Shown: positions 8,715-60,459 of the stretch, piece after piece
Layout: each line of letters opens with the position of its first letter
Position numbering within the stretch: position 1 is the first letter of the stretch
Origin: Ischnura elegans
Lineage: Eukaryota > Arthropoda > Insecta > Odonata > Coenagrionidae
NCBI RefSeq assembly: GCF_921293095.1
Contig: NC_060252.1
Span: 73,862,866 to 73,926,865 of the forward strand
Length of the DNA stretch: 64,000 bases
Direction: 5' to 3'
Notes under the pieces: model-generated
The model's database searches: none
What the model saw: the letters and a program-made list of their open reading frames with translations, nothing else
Told to the model about the DNA's origin: nothing
Translations under genes and position numbers: made by a program

Positions 8715-9465
8715 CTGCAGTCTCTTCCAGACTCACCAAATCGGATGCGGATGTCCCTTTTTCTAAGGTACTACCGTCATTATTTTTTTCAGCATGACTA
8801 CTCTTTTGCGATTTTTTTTAACGTAGAAGAAAAGAACCGTGATTCTTTTGTCGTCCTATCACCATTCCGCTGAAATCAACCTAGAAACAGGTGAATTAAT
8901 TTTTTTCTTGGTTCAGATCACAAGCCGATGTATTGTTGCGCATGCTACTAATGTTTGTTTTTGATGAGCGTGCATTTCAAGCGTTTTTATATTACCAAAT
9001 ATATACGAAATATTACATAATAAGCAGAAAAAATTAATTATTCTCATGCTGCCAATTTGCCGCCACACGAGTCCTACTGTAACTCCAATTTTTTGCAGTT
9101 TCCAGAGGGTTACGTTTCATAAAAATCATGCAATAATAGCGTTATCAATTGCTCTATCTTCCTTAGATCCGGAGAAATGACGTCCGATGCCGAGTCGAAT
9201 TTTGTAAAATTTTAGTTTTCAACATTTCATCATCTTGTAAACCGTTGTATTTATTACAAATATAATTTGGGTTGCTCCTTTTCTAATGAAATCAAGACTA
9301 TTTGTTCAGTTTGGTTGAAATATGCAAGAGACAAATATTTGGTCGAATTTGAGGAGGATGACCCAGATGCAGTGATAAAGTGATAAAAAAGTATGGGGAA
9401 ATATGCGTGTCCTTCATTTGTATTTGCTTAAAACTTTTGTGTTTGCAATTGGCTTAAAGGCAGAA
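8715..9465. other. Unassigned stretch upstream of tRNA-Gly
   Basis: No gene or recognised repeat is seen. The sequence is AT-rich with no open frame of note. Confidence 0.4.
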
Positions 9466-9471
9466 AAAGAG

Positions 9472-9543
9472 TGCGTCGGCCGGGAATCGAACCCGGATCA
9501 ACTGCTTGGAAGGCAACTATGCTGACCATTACACCACCGACGC
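9472..9543 (-). tRNA. tRNA-Gly(UCC), copy 1
   Basis: Read on the minus strand, a 72-nt cloverleaf starts GCGTCGG and its 3' strand CCGACGC pairs over all seven acceptor positions, followed by discriminator A. The anticodon loop CTTCCAA gives UCC. The A box lies in TGGTGTAATGG and the B box in GGGTTCGATTCCC. A run of five T on the minus strand just downstream (9461-9471) is a Pol III terminator. There is no intron and no CCA. It is identical to the copy at 11620, so both are probably functional. Confidence 0.95.
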
Positions 9544-9761
9544 CGTTGAAGATGGGCGTATTTTAAGGTCTTGCGGTTTCTAGATAAAGGCCAGCGATGC
9601 TGAAGCGTGGTTAATTCTTGCTGAGGCTTTGAATTTCCTTACGCCAACCACTCGTTGCCGCTGGTGAGTTTTGCACTTCTTGCCCCGCCTCTGGATTGCA
9701 CCCACTCTACACTATCCTTTCACCAAGTCGAGTCGTCGCATACGCTTTCACTGTTATCGCA

Positions 9762-11019: not shown

Positions 11020-11615
11020 TGTTTACCCTACATTCTTCCCTCTAACATTGTTTTAACATCTACCCGCACAAAACTCGATCCATCCTAAATTTCTGTGTCC
11101 TCTCAACGGAAAATGGGATACCTACCTTATCATTTATGCTGATTATGTAATGTTATGTCCTTATGCTTTCCTGACAGAAACATTAATTTCCTTAGTATTT
11201 CTCTTTGGTAGATGACGTTCCGACAGCATTATGTGCAAATAAGAGTTAAATGACAACAAAGATATTTGATGCTAAACAAATTTATGGACTAAATTATTAG
11301 GTTTATTATTCTTCTTATTCCGGTCCCGGGGTATAGTACACAATACTCCAGGTGGTCACTTATTGTGAGATGTGAGAAATCGCTGTAGTCTTTAGTGTTC
11401 TCGTGTGGAGAATTTTAGGAATCTGTTTTGTCTCAACGTTTGAAATTAAAATCTGGATTCTATCCGGCGGTCGGCAGAGCAGTCGACCACTCCACGGCAT
11501 CAAAATATTTTCAACAGCCGGTTTAAGTATAAAAAGTTGTCGGTGTAATGATTGACAATGTTGTGCGGTCTTCATGATGGAGGCAGGGGTTGGAAGGCTG
11601 ATGTTTGGTGAAAAA
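11020..11615. other. Unassigned stretch
   Basis: The first 80 bp may be further decayed LINE sequence (CTAACATTGTTTTAACATC resembles 22330). Nothing else is recognised. Confidence 0.35.
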
Positions 11616-11619
11616 AATG

Positions 11620-11691
11620 TGCGTCGGCCGGGAATCGAACCCGGATCAACTGCTTGGAAGGCAACTATGCTGACCATTACACCACCGACGC
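11620..11691 (-). tRNA. tRNA-Gly(UCC), copy 2
   Basis: This is identical base for base to the gene at 9472-9543, with full acceptor pairing, UCC anticodon and intact A and B boxes. A run of seven T on the minus strand (11612-11618) is the Pol III terminator. The flanks of the two copies do not match, so this is not a recent simple tandem duplication. The 2.1 kb between them holds LINE and MITE debris. Confidence 0.95.
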
Positions 11692-11699
11692 TGTGAAGC

Positions 11700-14225: not shown

Positions 14226-14261
14226 CGAATTATTATTATTATTTTGTTCTGATAGTATTGT

Positions 14262-14963
14262 ATGACAAACATGGAAAGGACAATGGCCAAATATCAGCTG
14301 AAAATCAACAAAAAGAAGACTAAGATATTAGTTGGCAGCAAAAGAGAGGAGGCTAAAACAAACATCAACCTAGGAAAGCATAAGCTTGAAGAGGTGAACG
14401 AGTTCTCTTACCTGGGAAGCCGAATTACCAGCGATGGACGGAGCAAGAAAGAAATACACAGTAGAATAGCGCAGGCGAAGAGGGCTTTCTACAAAAAGAA
14501 GAATCTTCTTACAGCTGAAAATACCAGCATAGAAGTAAGGAAACAATTCATCAGATGCTACATATGGAGTATGTTTCTCTATGGAAGCGAGGCTTGGACG
14601 TTGACAGCAGCAGAGAAGTCAAGAGTGGAAGCATTCGAAATGTGGTGCTACCGAAGAATGATGAAGATAAAATGGATTGACCGTGTGAGTAACCAAGAAG
14701 TGCTAAGGAGAGTGGGAGAAAAGAGAAGCCTCCTAAAAACATTAAGCAGAAGAAGGGACAACTTAGTTGGCCACATTTTGAGGCACGATGATCTGATGAA
14801 GACAATCGTTGAAGGACAAGTGGAAGGGAAAAAGGGCAAGGGACGGCCCCGAATGAGTTATATAGGACAGATTATAAAGGATGTAAAAGAGAATAAATAT
14901 GTAGCTATGAAGAGATTAGCGGATGGGAGAGATAAATGGAGAGCTGCGTCAAACCAATCTTAG
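14262..14963 (+). CDS. RTE-type LINE reverse transcriptase, C-terminal fragment
   Basis: This 233-codon open frame is the C-terminal part of a non-LTR retrotransposon polyprotein (endonuclease plus reverse transcriptase) of the RTE-like group. Early residues (about 10-30) match the end of the RT thumb (LKINKKKTKIL). Then follow NEFSYLGSRITSDG (about 46-60), EIHSRIAQAKRAF, RCYIWSMFLYGSEAWTL (about 98-114), AFEMWCYRRMMKI, GHILRHDDLM and KKGKGRPRMSYIGQ (about 192-208). The catalytic YADD region lies upstream and is absent, so the copy is 5'-truncated and cannot act alone. After the stop a GATGATGATGA tail at 14980-14991 marks the 3' end, as usual for RTE elements. It is the best preserved of at least six copies in the window and the frame is unbroken, so it is fairly young. 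Confidence 0.88.
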   Translation: MTNMERTMAKYQLKINKKKTKILVGSKREEAKTNINLGKHKLEEVNEFSYLGSRITSDGRSKKEIHSRIAQAKRAFYKKKNLLTAENTSIEVRKQFIRCYIWSMFLYGSEAWTLTAAEKSRVEAFEMWCYRRMMKIKWIDRVSNQEVLRRVGEKRSLLKTLSRRRDNLVGHILRHDDLMKTIVEGQVEGKKGKGRPRMSYIGQIIKDVKENKYVAMKRLADGRDKWRAASNQS

Positions 14964-15662: not shown

Positions 15663-17093
15663 TTAGTGCCTTGTATGAAATTTTTGAAAACAGCCATTGA
15701 GGCTCACACATAAGTATACATCACACTTTTGGCATTTAATCCTAGTTCTTGATGAACAGCCAGAGTGTCTGCATCGTGATGCATTTTTGTCATTGCTAAA
15801 AATAGGCCAATGATTTATCCTGTCAAATCTGACGTCATTGACAGGGTGTATGATTCTTCGACGTTTTTGCTGGGTTTGATCCTCGTGGTCAATTTGCTGA
15901 TCTTCAATGCCTGTTTCTTCATTTACACATATTTTAGAACTCTCATGAGGGCCTGGACTAATTGAACTACATTTTGATGGCCTGCCTCTTTTTTTTTGGA
16001 TCTCCTCCCTGATTTCAACCCTTCCAGATTCAAAGTGAATCATTGCATTGCCTAATCGAGTTCTAAATTGCAAAAGTGAGGCAATTTCTCTTTTTGGTAC
16101 ATCTGCCTTCACACAATTTCGGCGGTACATTACCCAGGAATTTACTATAGCCAAATCAACAAAGTGCGTAAATACCCGTAAAGGCCATTTTTTGGTACGC
16201 ATTGAAGAAGAGTAATATGCTAGAAGTCGATCACAAAGATCAATTCCTCCCATACATTGGTTGTATTTTTTTATAACTAGAGGCTGGTTGACTTCACGTT
16301 TCCTCTTCTCTGTTTTGTCCCATCTCAAGCAAGATGAGTGGGGTTCACTACCTATGCAAGTAGATAGCATAGTGACTGCCTTACTATCCTGCCACTTGAC
16401 ACAACACATTTTTTTATCACTGCGCAGAACCTCGTCATAATCACCCCGTTTTAATTCTTTGTCGGATTTCAAAATACTAAGTGCACCACCTACTCTGTTT
16501 TTCATGACAGTACCACAGAGGTTAAAATTATTTGCCACTAGGTAATCACCTAGTTTTTCACTAGTGAAGAAGCGGTCGCAGTAGATGATGGAATGGCTGA
16601 TCGTCCTCGTTAGCAACTTCACAATTCCTGCGCCCAGACCAAGCTCCCTCATGTCCTTATCAGGAATGGTTCCTTTTCCAACATAGATATGAAAATCAAG
16701 AACAAGACCATCTCTTTCTGCAAGAACAAAATTTTTTAGTCCTACTGGATGTGGCTTATTCGGTACATACTGTCGATTAGGACATCTACCAGTGAAAGAA
16801 ATCATTTGTTCATCTACAGATTGTTCATTCGATCTAGGTAGCATGTGACATTTTTTCAAAAAGGCATCAAGTATCGGTCTTACTTTTTGTAACTTGTCAT
16901 CGCTATCGCTAGTAACAAATTTGTCAACGAAATGTAAATGATTCCTTAACTCGAAAAATCTGTCCCGTGACATGACTTTTTGAATGAGAGGAACGGCCAA
17001 ATCCCTACTCCAATACAGCCTTGTTTGCGGATAATTTAGTGAACCCATCAAAATGGACACGCCAACAAATCTGATGATTTCATCGTAGGTCAT
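15663..17093 (-). CDS. piggyBac transposase, catalytic core and C-terminal zinc domain
   Basis: The frame encodes 476 residues of a DDE-type transposase that cuts and pastes the surrounding element. The RNase H-like core is recognisable throughout: IIRFVGVSILMG at the start, YVPNKPHPVGLKNF (about 109-122), and the three catalytic aspartates at about D133 (LVLDFHIYVG), D173 (IIYCDRFFTS) and D285 (YNQCMGGIDLCD). The last 40 residues hold a cysteine/histidine-rich zinc-binding domain (CRHSGCSSRTRIKCQKC to HTRH) of the type that binds piggyBac ends. Family members are usually 550-600 residues, so the first 100 or so must come from upstream. They appear at 17100-17547 but in other frames. The start shown is simply the first in-frame ATG; in-frame sense codons (YIQVRDHRSIN) run on upstream. 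No stop or frameshift occurs in this part, so it looks young. Confidence 0.92.
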   Translation of the reverse strand: MTYDEIIRFVGVSILMGSLNYPQTRLYWSRDLAVPLIQKVMSRDRFFELRNHLHFVDKFVTSDSDDKLQKVRPILDAFLKKCHMLPRSNEQSVDEQMISFTGRCPNRQYVPNKPHPVGLKNFVLAERDGLVLDFHIYVGKGTIPDKDMRELGLGAGIVKLLTRTISHSIIYCDRFFTSEKLGDYLVANNFNLCGTVMKNRVGGALSILKSDKELKRGDYDEVLRSDKKMCCVKWQDSKAVTMLSTCIGSEPHSSCLRWDKTEKRKREVNQPLVIKKYNQCMGGIDLCDRLLAYYSSSMRTKKWPLRVFTHFVDLAIVNSWVMYRRNCVKADVPKREIASLLQFRTRLGNAMIHFESGRVEIREEIQKKRGRPSKCSSISPGPHESSKICVNEETGIEDQQIDHEDQTQQKRRRIIHPVNDVRFDRINHWPIFSNDKNASRCRHSGCSSRTRIKCQKCDVYLCVSLNGCFQKFHTRH

Positions 17094-17094
17094 A

Positions 17095-17547
17095 TTAATG
17101 GAGCGATGATCTCTTACTTGTATATACTGAATACAGGTTGCTTTGTTCTACCACACTTTTCCAAAAGCTGGGAGGAAAATACTCGAAAAACATATCGAGG
17201 AAATTTTGACTCCCTTCCTCATTTTCACAAAAGAGATCTTCTACGTCGTGTACATATGGTGGCATCCTGTAAGTTGTACAATTTTTTGCAGATTACTTAT
17301 TTATTATTATCACCAATGTATTCATAAGTGCATGCAGTATCATTCAATGCACTTTAACTCACTTGTCACGTGTCCATTTTTTATTCTTCGGAGTGCCTTT
17401 TTCTGAATTCGGTGAACGGAGTGATGCTAGTGGAACATCATCTTCACTTGAATATTCTTCTAAATATTCATTAAAATTATGTTCTTCATCTTCACCACTA
17501 GATATTTCCCCTGGAATATCCACATCACTATCTCCTAACATTTCCAA
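17095..17547 (-). pseudogene. piggyBac transposase N-terminal part, split frames
   Basis: On the minus strand an ATG at 17547 opens an acidic leader (GEISSGEDEEHNFNEYLEEY), typical of piggyBac N-termini. A donor-like GACAA/GTGAGT follows at 17363/17362. An acceptor TTACAG at 17267 leads into DVEDLFCENEEGSQNFLDMF, giving a 96-bp intron. Beyond it the conserved VEQSNLYS block lies in a second frame and IQVRDHRSINMTYDE in a third, so two single-base shifts within about 50 bp (roughly 17130-17165) separate it from the catalytic core. Either the gene is newly dead, or these are sequence errors, or a further small intron is used. Confidence 0.65.
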
Positions 17548-25727: not shown

Positions 25728-25803
25728 GGCTGTGTGGTGGTGTAACTGGGTAACACACCTGACCGGCAATCGGGAGATCCGGGTTCGAATCCCGGCTAAG
25801 CCA
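25728..25803 (+). repeat. tRNA-like SINE head or tRNA pseudogene (anticodon GGC)
   Basis: A tRNA-shaped 76-nt stretch has a good T arm (CCGGGTTCGAATCCCGG), an anticodon stem CCTGA/TCGGG around the loop CCGGCAA, and a D arm. Two of seven acceptor pairs are broken. A GGC alanine anticodon is not normal in eukaryotes, which read GCC with an inosine-modified AGC tRNA. This points to a tRNA-derived SINE head or a dead tRNA, and the family R repeat at 25915 nearby may be part of the same unit. Confidence 0.7.
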
Positions 25804-26764: not shown

Positions 26765-27510
26765 TCCTCGGCTCCCAAGAGATATCGTCTATATACGCCG
26801 CTGTACTATTTGTTTCTAGCGACTGGAGTTGCAATACATTTCCTCTTGCTGCGCTGCTCTTGGTAGTGTTGGTAGCGTCCCAGGAAAAGCCGTCAATCTG
26901 GTGCCGTGATTGGCTGCGTTAAGTACCGCTATTTGATCATCGATCCATCCGACAGCGGCACGCACCTTTTGTTTGCGTTATTTTCGCTTTGCATTCTCCG
27001 CCTCATATTTCGGACGGCATCACATCCATAAAATCATGCGACGTAATGTAAAATGGCGAGGTGACGGTCACGATGTGAAGTTGGGTGATTTCTTTGTTCT
27101 AAAATTTTAGGATTCATCGCATTTCGATGTTTGACTTCGCTAAAAGTTTGTATTAATAATAGGATTTATAGATACCTTGCCATTTTATATCATCATTATA
27201 AGTAGACATACGTGAAAATAGCAATTTCATTTTAATTTTATAGCACTTTCAATTACAGTTTATATTAGCATTTTGTAGAACCTATTTTTTCTTTATTTTC
27301 ATAATGCATCACTAGTAGTTGACGACAAAGTTTGATGAAACACAGTTATTTGAAAAAGTACGGATTAGTTTACATAAATATGGGGTATAACAATAATAAA
27401 TTAAGGAATAAGATGAAGTAAATAATTGAAAATTATTTAGAAGCCTGAATATCATTTACACTAGGCGAACATCGACATTAAACAAGTTTCAACACTTTCT
27501 TCCTTCAACT
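26765..27510. other. Unassigned AT-rich stretch
   Basis: No gene or repeat family was recognised; the second half is strongly AT-rich. Confidence 0.4.
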
Positions 27511-27516
27511 AGTTGT

Positions 27517-28260
27517 TTGCGTCTGTCAGTCACAACTAGATTGTACTGGCTGATAAACCTCTCTACATCTACGATGCTAACTGGTGTTCAGATTGTGTGG
27601 AGTGGAGAATTACCAAACTCAGTTTTTTCATGGCAGATGGCAAGAAATATTACGAGACCAAAATTACGAGATCAGCTTGTGAAGGCAAAGGACCCAACCG
27701 GGCTAAAAATTGCTGGAGTGTACGCTATACCATGTGAATGCGGAAAAACCTACATTGAAGAGACGGGCTGCACTATTGAGACCAAATTGAAAGAACATCG
27801 TAGACACCTAAGATTAGGACAAATGGAAAAATCGGCAGTGGCTGAGCACATCATCCTCGAGAATCATATGATTCACTGGGATACTGGGATATGATGTCGA
27901 TCTCATGGATACTGGGACCGCGTAGTAAAAGAATCCATTCAGATTCGAAAAAACAGCAATAATATCAACAGGCTTTAATTTAAGCCATATATGGGACCAC
28001 CTCTTAAAAATACTGGCAGCCAATCAGGAGACGCTGAACCGTCCTCACCCACAGGATTACGTATATACATATACCCCGAGGCTTGGGGATTTGTTATTGG
28101 ATACCTGAATCCCTGATGACGATGTGCGAGTTGTCCATCGAAACGTTGGAAGAAGAAATGGAGGATCTGACCCGGTGCGAAACCCGAGAAAACTTCACTG
28201 CAAGAAATATTTGCTTAACATCGCAAAATCTACCAGGGTTCTCTCTCAACCTCTCCAGTT
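27517..28260 (+). mobile_element. Penelope-like element, GIY-YIG domain and terminus
   Basis: The plus-strand frame 27517-27894 (125 codons) ends with a GIY-YIG endonuclease domain: LVKAKDP, then GVYAIPCECGKTYIEETG, KLKEHRRHL and SAVAEH, the Penelope-like order of motifs. The strict active-site glycine in YIG is replaced (YIE), so this copy is probably inactive. About 220 bp after the frame breaks, 28113-28146 carries a hammerhead-like CTGATGA...GAAACGTT module with a GATG/CATC stem. The same module occurs six times at 42331-42702. The association of domain and module on one strand supports reading the modules as Penelope termini. Confidence 0.8.
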
Positions 28261-42098: not shown

Positions 42099-42289
42099 TT
42101 TTGGATTAATTGGACCCCTAACGGCTCAGCACCTGACTCGGACACCAACTCCAGGCATATGCCTGTTAACGGTGCCAGAGACGACAGCCAAAACGCTTGA
42201 ACCTCACCAGGTTAATAACTTGGCTGGAAACCCGAGAAGCAGTTATGTAATGTCTGGTTCTTTCCCGGCAAAAAATAGTGGTGAAGAAT

Positions 42290-42730
42290 CCTCGGCTATT
42301 GCACCGGGTAAGGTCCTAAATATATCCTTCCAACGTTTCGACAAGCAAGTCGTCAATCGTCTTCATTCATCCAATGGATTCCTGAATCCCTGAAGACGAT
42401 GGGCGAGTTGTTTGTCGAAACGTCGTGAAGAATTTTCGGGTCTTGCATCGCGTAAGGTCCTCCGTATCTCTTTCCGACGTTTCGACAAACAAATCGCCCA
42501 TCGTCTTCAGGGATTCAGGAATCAAGTGGAATAATGAAGGCGTTGCGAGTTGTTTGTCGAAACGTCGGAAAGAGATACGGAGGATTTTACCCAGTACAAG
42601 ATCCGAGAATTCTTCGCGACGTTTCGACAAACAACTCGCCCATCGTCTTCAGAGACTCAGCGATGAATGAAGACAATGGACGACTTGCTTGTCGAAACGT
42701 TGGAAGGAGATATGGAGGACCTAACCTGGT
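42290..42730. repeat. Alternating array of six Penelope-terminus modules
   Basis: Six copies of a 35-bp module (CTGAAGACGATGG...TTGTCGAAACGTC) alternate in strand: minus 42331-42365, plus 42390-42424, minus 42476-42510, plus 42534-42566, minus 42618-42652, plus 42668-42702. Neighbouring copies can fold into nested hairpins. A seventh copy lies at 28113 next to a GIY-YIG domain. The outer flanks (TAAGGTCCTAAATATATCC and its inverted partner near 42715) are also complementary. Confidence 0.85.
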
Positions 42731-42789
42731 GCCACTGCCGATAGCAGTTCCTGAACATCATTCGCCGGGAAATCCCAAGTAATATTGTG

Positions 42790-43515
42790 AGCAGTTTCCT
42801 TTCCCTGCTCGTTTTTAGTTGACGTTAACGACGCTATCCGAAAGTAGCGCAGACTCTCAGACAATCATGTGGTTTACCCCGTGGCCAATGAAGTGAAGAG
42901 AATCAACTGCGCCCGGGGGAAAGGGCCCCTATGATGCACCGGGACGCGACGCTACGGGAATTACTTGAACATGCGGGTTGGCGATGACGGCGATCGAAGG
43001 ATCGTCGCCCGCACCTCATTCACAAGGGGAGACCAAGTACCTTGCTCCGCCTTTTTCAATGCCGTATTTTTTATGGCATTCGAAATGGCGGACACGTCTC
43101 TGAACTGATAGGTGTTCCATTGAATGGGCCTTAGTTTGGCTGTAATTAATTAATTTTCGAGCGGTATTTTTAACAAGCGCTATATAATTCCAGAATAACG
43201 CAGCATTATACAGATGGTTCGGTTGATCTAGTGGCCAGCATCTCCGGCTTTCAACCGAGGGGCAGTATATTTTGTAGTCTTCGTTTCGATACGCGGCGAC
43301 AAGTATTTGTCAGTCTCAAGCCTCAACTACAGTCTCATGCCACACATTTCGTGAAAGGCACTTGGTTGCTCAACCTGATGTACGTACGAACAGACATTTA
43401 AAAATGCAGCGTGTAAAGCCATGAATTGCACGAACGCAAGGTCGCAAGATTCCCAGCTCTAATTCTGAAATGATAGTACGCCCCATTGAGTAAAACGTGC
43501 TGCTTAAAGATGTGC
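42790..43515. other. Unassigned stretch with a tRNA-Glu-like piece
   Basis: At 43219-43263 a D arm (GATCTAGTGGCCAGCATC) and an anticodon arm with loop CTTTCAA (UUC) resemble the 5' half of tRNA-Glu, but the T arm is missing. The rest shows nothing recognisable. Confidence 0.4.
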
Positions 43516-56360: not shown

Positions 56361-56744
56361 TTTCCATTAACTTGTTAATCACCCCCTATATCCCCTCGCG
56401 GGGGTATGCCTACTGTCGACGCAAAAAAAGGTAGAACGCTGAACTTAAAGCAGTTGTACGAAATTCTGCCGAAGTTCCGTAGGATCGTGTAGTATATCGT
56501 TTTACTCATTTTTTAGTCGACTACAGCAATGAATCGTGAAACATTGTTTGAACGTAAAATTTTAGCATCTACGGTCAAAATAGTCAATAAAAACACGCCA
56601 AAAAAACTATGATACCGCCGAAACGGTCGTCTTCTTCATCTCGTCAGGGACAAAATATTTGATTGGTGTACTTCATTGTTTTTTTTTGTATAGAGAGCTA
56701 CATCTTCGCATTACAAATAGCTTCTTAAAATTAAATTTTACTCA

Positions 56745-56932
56745 TTATTGAATGAAATAAAATAACTTTGTTTTATTCCACACTTTATTTGAAATAGCAC
56801 GTCCCGGGTTTCAACATCTAGTGTTATCATCAGGTGATAATAACCTGATGATAACACTAGATGTTGAAACCCGGGTCGTGCTATTTCAAATAAAGTGTGG
56901 AATAAAACAAAGTTATTTTATTTCATCCAATA
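56745..56932. repeat. Approximately 190-bp near-perfect palindrome
   Basis: The left arm 56745-56834 and right arm 56843-56932 are reverse complements with about three differences and an 8-bp centre. Each arm contains CCTGATGATAACACTAGATG, then TTGAAACCCGGGTCGTGC, a hammerhead-like core with an AACA/TGTT stem, pointing outward. It shares flanks with the hairpin at 43518. It looks like two Penelope-type termini joined head to head. Confidence 0.88.
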
Positions 56933-56969
56933 ATGAAGCAATTCCACAAAATAACGCCTGAGACCATGT

Positions 56970-59742: not shown

Positions 59743-60459
59743 ATTCCTGGCTGTGTCTACTTGATCAGACAATTTATTGTCCTCAAGATACCTGGCTTTA
59801 CCCATTTCCAAGAAAAATGCCTTGTACTCAAAATTCTTGGCTGTATCCGTTTCCAATGACGGTTTATTGTACTCAAGATTCCTGGATTCACCCACTTCCA
59901 ATGGCGATTTCTTGTACTCGAGATTCTTGGTTTTATCCACTTCCAAGTACAATTTTTGTACTCATGATTACGGGCTGAATCCTTTTTCAATGTCGATTTC
60001 TTGTAATCAATATTTTTGACCGTATACATTTTCAATGATGATTTCTTGTATTCAGTATTCCTTGCTGAATCCACTTCCAACGACAACTCCTTGTACTCAA
60101 GTTTCCTGGCTGTATCCACTTCCAATGACGATTCCTTGTACTCAGTATTCGTTTCTGTATGCATTTCCCCGGGCAACTTCATACACTTAAAATTCTTGGC
60201 TGTATCCACTTCCATGGACAATTTCTTTTACACAATATTCTTGGCTGTGTCCACTTTCAAATAACGATCTCTTGTACTCAATTTTCCTGGCTGTATTCAC
60301 TTCCACGGACAATTTCTTGTACTCGCGATTCCTGGCTGTATCCGTTTCCACGGAAAATTTCTTGTACTCGATATTCTTGGCTGTATCCACTTCCAATGAC
60401 GAATTCTTGTATTCAAGATTTCTCCTGGCTGTATTCTTTTCCGCTGACGATCCCTTGCT
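59743..60459 (-). repeat. 45-bp coding minisatellite, 16 units
   Basis: Sixteen units follow one another, each close to ATTCCTGGCTGTATCCACTT plus 25 more bases. Fourteen of the units are close to 45 bp. Around 59920-59963 one unit is 44 bp and around 60240-60285 one is 46 bp, and the last (60416-60459) carries a 3-bp insertion. On the minus strand each unit encodes 15 residues of the form LEVDTARNxEYKKxS. Units differ by 10-30 percent, so the array is old. Confidence 0.88.

Follow-up and report, generated by a model that had tools for sequence, protein, structure and literature searches.

How did six copies of a short unit resembling a hammerhead ribozyme core come to lie side by side on alternating strands, and how intact are those cores? 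The question arises in a 64-kb stretch of Ischnura elegans DNA, the whole of which we analysed and refer to as the window (all coordinates are window positions). An initial annotation had described strand-alternating hammerhead-like modules and suggested repeated head-to-head joining of the ends of a mobile element, possibly a Penelope-like element (PLE). Building on the homology of seven units, the common orientation of the dimers that they form, a shared reading frame and a 26-nt spacing wherever the ATG is kept, we consider it highly likely that PLE 3' ends left this array behind as a scar of retrotransposition and repair.

Six copies of one unit form a near-palindrome

The array is 512 bp long and holds six copies of a unit of about 50–110 nt in one near-palindrome, with the units following each other from left to right (m1 to m6) in the strand order minus, plus, minus, plus, minus, plus.

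42261–42772, no strand assigned: whole array, a near-palindrome (inverted-repeat search, blastn, folding)
42261–42373, minus strand: m1, putative PLE end unit (nhmmer E 1.3e-29, core table), with tail at 42261–42331, core ATGAAGA without C3, then GAAACGTT, and a truncated upstream part
42376–42424, plus strand: m2, upstream part intact and CTGAAGA core (nhmmer, core table), its own sequence stopping at or at most about 9 nt past GTC (42424), without a tail of its own; the profile alignment extends to 42431
42425–42525, minus strand: m3, the most complete unit (nhmmer E 1.7e-31), with stem I of 3 bp, CTGAAGA at 42504–42510, GAAACGTC (to 42476) and the tail end at 42425
42526–42617, plus strand: m4, damaged core ATGAAGG with stem II shortened by a 2-nt deletion, and a tail that reaches 42617
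42618–42666, minus strand: m5, CTGAAGA core, its own end at or shortly past GTC (42618), without a tail of its own; the profile alignment runs weakly to 42598
42660–42772, plus strand: m6, core ATGAAGA without C3, then GAAACGTT, and a long tail with an in-frame stop

The array arms recovered by inverted-repeat searching measure 116, 80 and 74 nt, with a complementarity of 90%, 88% and 89%, respectively, and a short outermost arm pair (TTTCCCGGCAAA / TTCGCCGGGAAA) was found as well. The six related modules on strictly alternating strands that the initial annotation had described were thereby borne out, and its extent of 42290–42730 proved too small, as the outer arm pair stretches the array to 42261–42772. 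In a blastn comparison with the window, most of the stretch 42250–42760 aligns to the reverse complement of the stretch itself (79–81% identity). Searching the 64-kb window with an nhmmer profile of the unit returned the six array units and one further copy at 28098–28207, all seven with E at or below 2.4e-13, and the next-best match had E 0.44; the profile was built from these same seven units, such that the result means that the window holds no further clear copy. The copy at 28098–28207 was recovered independently by blastn with the array as query (E 1.4e-18).

The best candidate for a target-site duplication around the array was the 7-mer AGCAGTT at 42238 and 42790, and with 565 of 2000 random draws equal or better such a duplication is unsupported. 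A bacterial promoter and terminator scan gave nothing of note. Ten Rfam microRNA matches (best E 0.0008, 18–29 bits against cut-offs of 73–118) were rejected as an effect of the long inverted repeat.

A single copy lies downstream of an endonuclease-like reading frame

All six array units match the 28-kb unit (by blastn with E down to 1.4e-18, and by the profile), which lies beside a decayed reading frame.

27430–27894, plus strand: decayed ORF fragment, GIY-YIG endonuclease-like (GVYAIPCECGKTYIEETG...EH...), as judged from its motif only
28098–28207, plus strand: single copy of the array unit, 3' of the endonuclease-like ORF (blastn, nhmmer, core table)

This copy, with a hammerhead-like core at 28113–28147 and the tail frame MCELSIETLEEEMEDLTRCETRENFT, sits about 200 bp downstream of the ORF fragment. 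The fragment contains GVYAIPCECGKTYIEETGCTIETKLKEHRRH..., which we take to be the GIY-YIG endonuclease motif of PLEs, and after one stop past that motif the same frame reads YWDRVVKESIQIRKNSNNINRL, presumably the typical end of PLE endonuclease proteins. No GIY-YIG match for the fragment came up in Pfam, whether at E 0.001 or at E 10, in PHROGs or among PDB sequences; its only Pfam match up to E 10 was UPF0172 (E 0.05–0.07, below the cut-off of that family), and a structure prediction of 27637–27894 was poor and uninformative (pLDDT 47.5). A Pfam scan that covered 6 of the 30 listed ORFs revealed no part of a reverse transcriptase of this element. The proposed link to PLEs is supported by evidence that the initial annotation did not cite, namely the 28-kb unit 3' of an endonuclease-like ORF and, where the ATG is kept, an ATG-to-cut spacing equal to that of an Anolis PLE. 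The family itself is assigned from the motif, and we infer the identity of the element as a PLE from that motif together with the structural parallels described below.

Relatives were also sought in viral and prokaryotic sequence collections, which are not informative on absence in animals. The half-unit pattern CTGANGACGATGNGCGANTTG matched 10 viral and 50 prokaryotic-genome stretches, and inspection of all 60 with the 30 bases that follow showed that none is the module; GAAAC lies in those bases in three of them, which have the same sequence each time (GGGAAACC, not GAAACGT). Two further patterns matched 4 and 3 viral stretches, with both halves present in none of the seven, and a protein search of the viral and prokaryotic collections with an 80-aa piece of the endonuclease-like ORF produced 24 pattern matches, none of them a relative.

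The core overlaps the start of an open reading frame

The putative stem II begins with an ATG, from which an open frame runs (MGDLFVETSERDTEDLTRCKTRKFFT in m3, MCELSIETLEEEMEDLTRCETRENFT at 28 kb). It reads MGELFVET.. or MGDLFVET.. in m2, m3 and m5 and MCELSIET.. at 28 kb; the text of m1, m4 and m6 is similar, but a stop interrupts it in m1 and m6, and m1 and m4 lack the ATG. The ATG is thus kept in five of the seven copies (28 kb, m2, m3, m5 and m6), and in all five GUC or GUU ends on base 26 when the A of the ATG is taken as base 1, a count from which m1 and m4 were left out, their cut position being a fixed offset without an ATG. Tails come in two lengths or are absent among the units; measured from the start-codon position, the inner ones reach to about 77 nt and the outer ones to about 97 nt.

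The Poseidon PLE of Anolis (PAc) offers a close parallel in layout, as its ORF starts at stem II, its ribozyme cuts 26 nt past the start codon, and its tail ends in the ORF start (PMC11167929). Given this likeness in frame and 26-nt spacing, we read the unit as a pseudo-LTR end, a hammerhead-like core and a tail, such that by its structure it would be a pseudo-LTR running into an ORF start with an optional tail. The two systems differ in that reverse transcription of PAc starts 111–118 nt into the ORF whereas the array tails end near 97 nt (outer) and 77 nt (inner). PAc cleaves only with its protein present (PMC11167929).

Three head-to-head dimers share an orientation

The modules group into three head-to-head dimers, D1 (m1/m2), D2 (m4/m3) and D3 (m6/m5), each with one upstream part intact (m2, m3, m5) and the other truncated (m1, m4, m6). 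Dimer alignments scored higher in this common orientation than with one partner flipped (69 versus 46.5, 66.5 versus 39.5 and 48.5 versus 41). Shuffling the spacers revealed that their scores were reached in 0, 2 and 54 of 2000 shuffles (D1–D2, D1–D3 and D2–D3, respectively), as against 1353, 1857 and 1919 of 2000 for flipped spacers. Because they match better in the common orientation, the dimers are probably of shared ancestry, although the spacers lend only marginal support to the D2–D3 pair (54 of 2000), in part owing to a D3 spacer that is shorter by 9 bases. These alignments and shuffles support the repeated head-to-head joining of element ends that the initial annotation had suggested.

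D1 points right, and D2 and D3 point left. D2 is tailed at both ends, D1 and D3 have no tail on their inner side, and it is there that the sequences of m2 and m5 stop at GUC, the predicted cut (42424 and 42618), and abut the tail ends of D2 (42425 and 42617). The break in m2 and m5 may lie up to about 9 nt past GUC, because GAAGAA occurs both where the 28-kb tail begins (GGAAGAAG) and in the antisense of the tail end (GTGAAGAA). The two GUC junctions are mirror images of the same structure and probably descend from one duplicated event. Microhomology could have caused them: with a tail of the sequence CGACGTTT, as many as 8 nt would be common to the tail and the reverse complement of a core, and no copy shows that sequence natively (m1 has CACCACTAT, m6 AACATCATT and the 28-kb copy CACTGCAAG), so that a microhomology of anywhere from 1 to 8 nt is possible.

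A proposed origin by PLE retrotransposition and repair

In the origin that we propose, the unit would consist of three parts, a pseudo-LTR end, a minimal hammerhead-like core that spans the start codon of the ORF and, as a tail, the first ORF codons, the PLE tail presumably being where reverse transcription starts. Strongly 5'-truncated copies would have been joined head-to-head into a dimer, either by priming on both nicked strands or by self-priming at a small palindrome. Copies of this dimer would then have arisen, three of which (D1 in forward, D2 and D3 in reverse orientation) would have been linked tail-to-tail, possibly through self-priming or a template jump, yielding alternating strands; the mirror half may have been added by a later inverted duplication. 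The hammerhead-like cores, by now mostly decayed, would have been inherited from the element and would represent no new device. We infer these priming events and their order.

Penelope elements of Adineta have inverted pseudo-LTRs and an optional 31-bp tail, their inverted junctions are most often head-to-head with palindromes, for which self-priming has been proposed, and self-priming on a sense template is predicted to give tail-to-tail repeats (PMC3846280, in excerpt). The Anolis PLE protein performs cleavage and extension on both DNA strands (PMC11167929). Either both-strand priming or self-priming could yield a head-to-head dimer, and chained inverted ends such as these would be useful for testing the one against the other. 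The array shares with Adineta vaga Penelope its inverted ends, head-to-head junctions and short optional tail into the ORF start; there, however, an ORF or captured DNA mostly lies between the ends, whereas here three end-dimers are chained without internal sequence and with added tail-to-tail junctions (PMC3846280, as excerpted). The arrangement mostly follows known PLE habits. Among the matches listed from the open-licence literature, represented by excerpts, we found no chain of inverted PLE-end dimers, and the excerpted text of PMC12910113 and PMC3849965 holds nothing on this arrangement.

A possible but less probable alternative is that the chain was built from a single inserted dimer by later DNA-level events, an inverted duplication or a repair palindrome, and not by retrotransposition. 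The two halves of the array do mirror each other around 42517–42521, and mirror partners are alike in their 26-nt cores (96% identity for m1/m6, 100% for m2/m5) and, for m3/m4, in their tails (84%, the closest tail pair). However, this core identity is unspecific, with m2/m3 and m3/m5 also at 96%, the tails of m1/m6 (72%) are less alike than those of m1/m3 (76%), and the mirror partners m3 and m4 differ in their upstream parts (intact and truncated, respectively), for which three dimers account better than a simple fold-back does. The DNA-level reading and retrotransposition of PLE ends are compatible with each other.

Hammerhead-like cores are mostly incomplete

We then turn to the state of the cores. 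CTGAAGA occurs in three of the six array modules (m2, m3, m5), with m1 and m6 reading ATGAAGA and m4 ATGAAGG, and CTGATGA with GAAAC is absent from the array and present in the 28-kb copy, so that the earlier statement that each module has CTGAAGA or CTGATGA does not hold. GAAAC followed by GUC or GUU was correctly noted for every module (6/6, and 7/7 with the 28-kb copy), and the extra base between the CTGANGA motif and the stem, noted for most copies, is a C between A9 and stem II in all of them (again 6/6 and 7/7). Position by position, complete CUGANGA is found in the 28-kb copy, m2, m3 and m5, and it is these three array modules plus the 28-kb copy that have both CUGANGA and GAAAC-NUH.

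The stems vary more widely. Out of 7 possible stem II pairs, m2, m3 and m5 form all 7 (four of them G-U in each), the 28-kb copy 6, m1 and m6 5, and m4 4. Stem I reaches 3 bp only in m3 and the 28-kb copy, and is down to one pair in m2 and to a single G-U pair in m5. Consequently m3 is the only array module that combines CUGANGA, stem I, stem II and GAAAC-GUC. Helix III is formed in no copy; it is impossible within a single copy because GAAAC and GUC are adjacent, although a dimer could form it, ACGU being self-complementary. In predicted folding, the hammerhead structure of m3 alone has -13.0 kcal/mol against an optimum of -17.6, and that of the 28-kb copy -21.2 against -25.2 kcal/mol.

Rfam hammerhead families had no match in the whole window at gathering scores, and a search with them at E up to 10 found none in 42200–42800 or 28050–28250, although these models may miss helix-III-less forms. 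Covariation in stems I and II was absent (0 pairs changed on both sides; score reached in 499 of 500 shuffles), and the paired share of 83.3% lies below the shuffled mean of 85.8%; it exceeds that of slid versions (30–54%), but the structure was drawn from the same sequences. With m3 alone keeping these parts together, no helix III, an extra base throughout and no Rfam match, a reading as six ribozymes is unsupported, and a working hammerhead in the array is plausible for m3 at most. In our view the core is a minimal PLE hammerhead by descent, and the ribozyme of the source element was possibly active in the past.

In the available excerpts, PLE hammerheads are reviewed as minimal, helix-III-less and maybe dimeric forms of type I (PMC6155905, PMC7761336), which our cores resemble in CUGANGA where it is kept, stem II, GAAAC and GUC/GUU and the lack of helix III; they differ by the extra base between A9 and stem II and by the missing C3 in three of six modules. 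Animal non-LTR retrozymes, as excerpted (PMC7229834, PMC7761336), likewise have short repeats at similar spacing and type I hammerhead cores, but are tandem repeats in one orientation with canonical hammerheads, whereas the array alternates in strand and is decayed.

The likeness to a hammerhead could also be a coincidence of coding sequence at the PLE ORF start, which we regard as unlikely. The core does overlap codons, covariation is lacking, and the bare CTGANGA..GAAAC motif turned up 80 times in 60 simulated order-1 Markov windows (about 1.3 per window), a frequency at which that motif alone is no evidence. The full pattern (an unbroken stem II of 4 or more pairs, one extra base being allowed, followed by GUH and a stem I of 3 or more), itself derived from these copies, was found in none of the 60 simulated windows but twice in the real one (m3 and the 28-kb copy), and the spacing to the cut site equals that of the Anolis PLE, whose ribozyme has been tested.

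Somewhat more doubtful still is a hairpin-RNA locus, at which a read-through transcript would form a hairpin of about 210 bp that feeds siRNAs silencing the PLE. For the plus strand of the array, folding predicts one hairpin (-341.7 kcal/mol) whose 211 pairs all have their centre no more than 6 nt from 42521, and for the minus strand a similar one (-336.5 kcal/mol), which makes a source of siRNAs possible and hammerhead folding inside the array unlikely. Sense-antisense PLE sequence is present, and PLEs of Adineta are small-RNA targets (PMC3846280, in excerpt). Yet any inverted insertion would give such a fold, and the arms diverge by 10–20%, like a decaying repeat. The array probably has no specific present function.

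It is very improbable that the position of the two tail-to-tail junctions, at GUC or within about 9 nt after it, is causal, in the sense that ribozyme-cut PLE RNA was the template or was joined at its cut end. Ribozyme cleavage would place a junction there, as microhomology could too, and the two junctions count as a single event. If this were true, insertion ends would record in vivo ribozyme cleavage, a step without reads in the Anolis study, in which the ribozyme was dispensable for in vitro insertion (PMC11167929). The role of PLE hammerheads is described as unknown in the excerpted PMC7761336, and junctions at a predicted cut raise a countable question, namely whether PLE 3' ends pile up at GUC beyond expectation; excerpts of the open-licence literature gave no report of insertion ends at a hammerhead cut among the matches listed.

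A working, PLE-derived and retrozyme-like array on both strands, with tandem hammerheads about 142 nt apart releasing small RNAs, is hardly credible: its same-strand core spacings (142 and 135 nt on the plus strand, 144 and 142 nt on the minus strand) come near the repeat size of animal retrozymes (150–300 bp), the minimal hammerheads of PLEs may work as dimers (both PMC7761336, as excerpted) and the self-complementary ACGT beside the cut could form a shared helix III, but the plus strand has a core in m2 alone of three modules, with a stem I of 1 bp, the minus strand has cores in m3 and m5 with stem I kept only in m3, the predicted RNA hairpins of both strands pair the cores with each other, and covariation and Rfam hammerhead matches are both absent.

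Other features of the window

Elsewhere in the window, 56742–56936 is a near-perfect palindrome of two 97-nt arms (97% complementary, 1 nt apart) and contains an inverted CTGATGA...GAAAC pair (56808–56833 and 56845–56870) without a GUH cut site. Two open frames resemble proteins of mobile elements, one long frame on the minus strand at 15663–17147 (Pfam DDE_Tnp_1_7, E 4e-64), which we take to be a piggyBac-type transposase, and one on the plus strand at 14256–14963 with a weak RVT_1 match (E 0.0066, below cut-off), presumably LINE-like. A 45-bp tandem unit fills 59768–60442 in about 14 copies, with periods of 90 and 135 bp as well and open frames on both strands. Two tRNA-Gly (TCC) genes (9464–9546 and 11612–11694) lie in the same orientation 2148 bp apart, within an 83-nt repeat of 96% identity, and a tRNA match on the plus strand at 25731–25803, found by Rfam (43.8 bits) and not by ARAGORN, is perhaps a tRNA-derived repeat.
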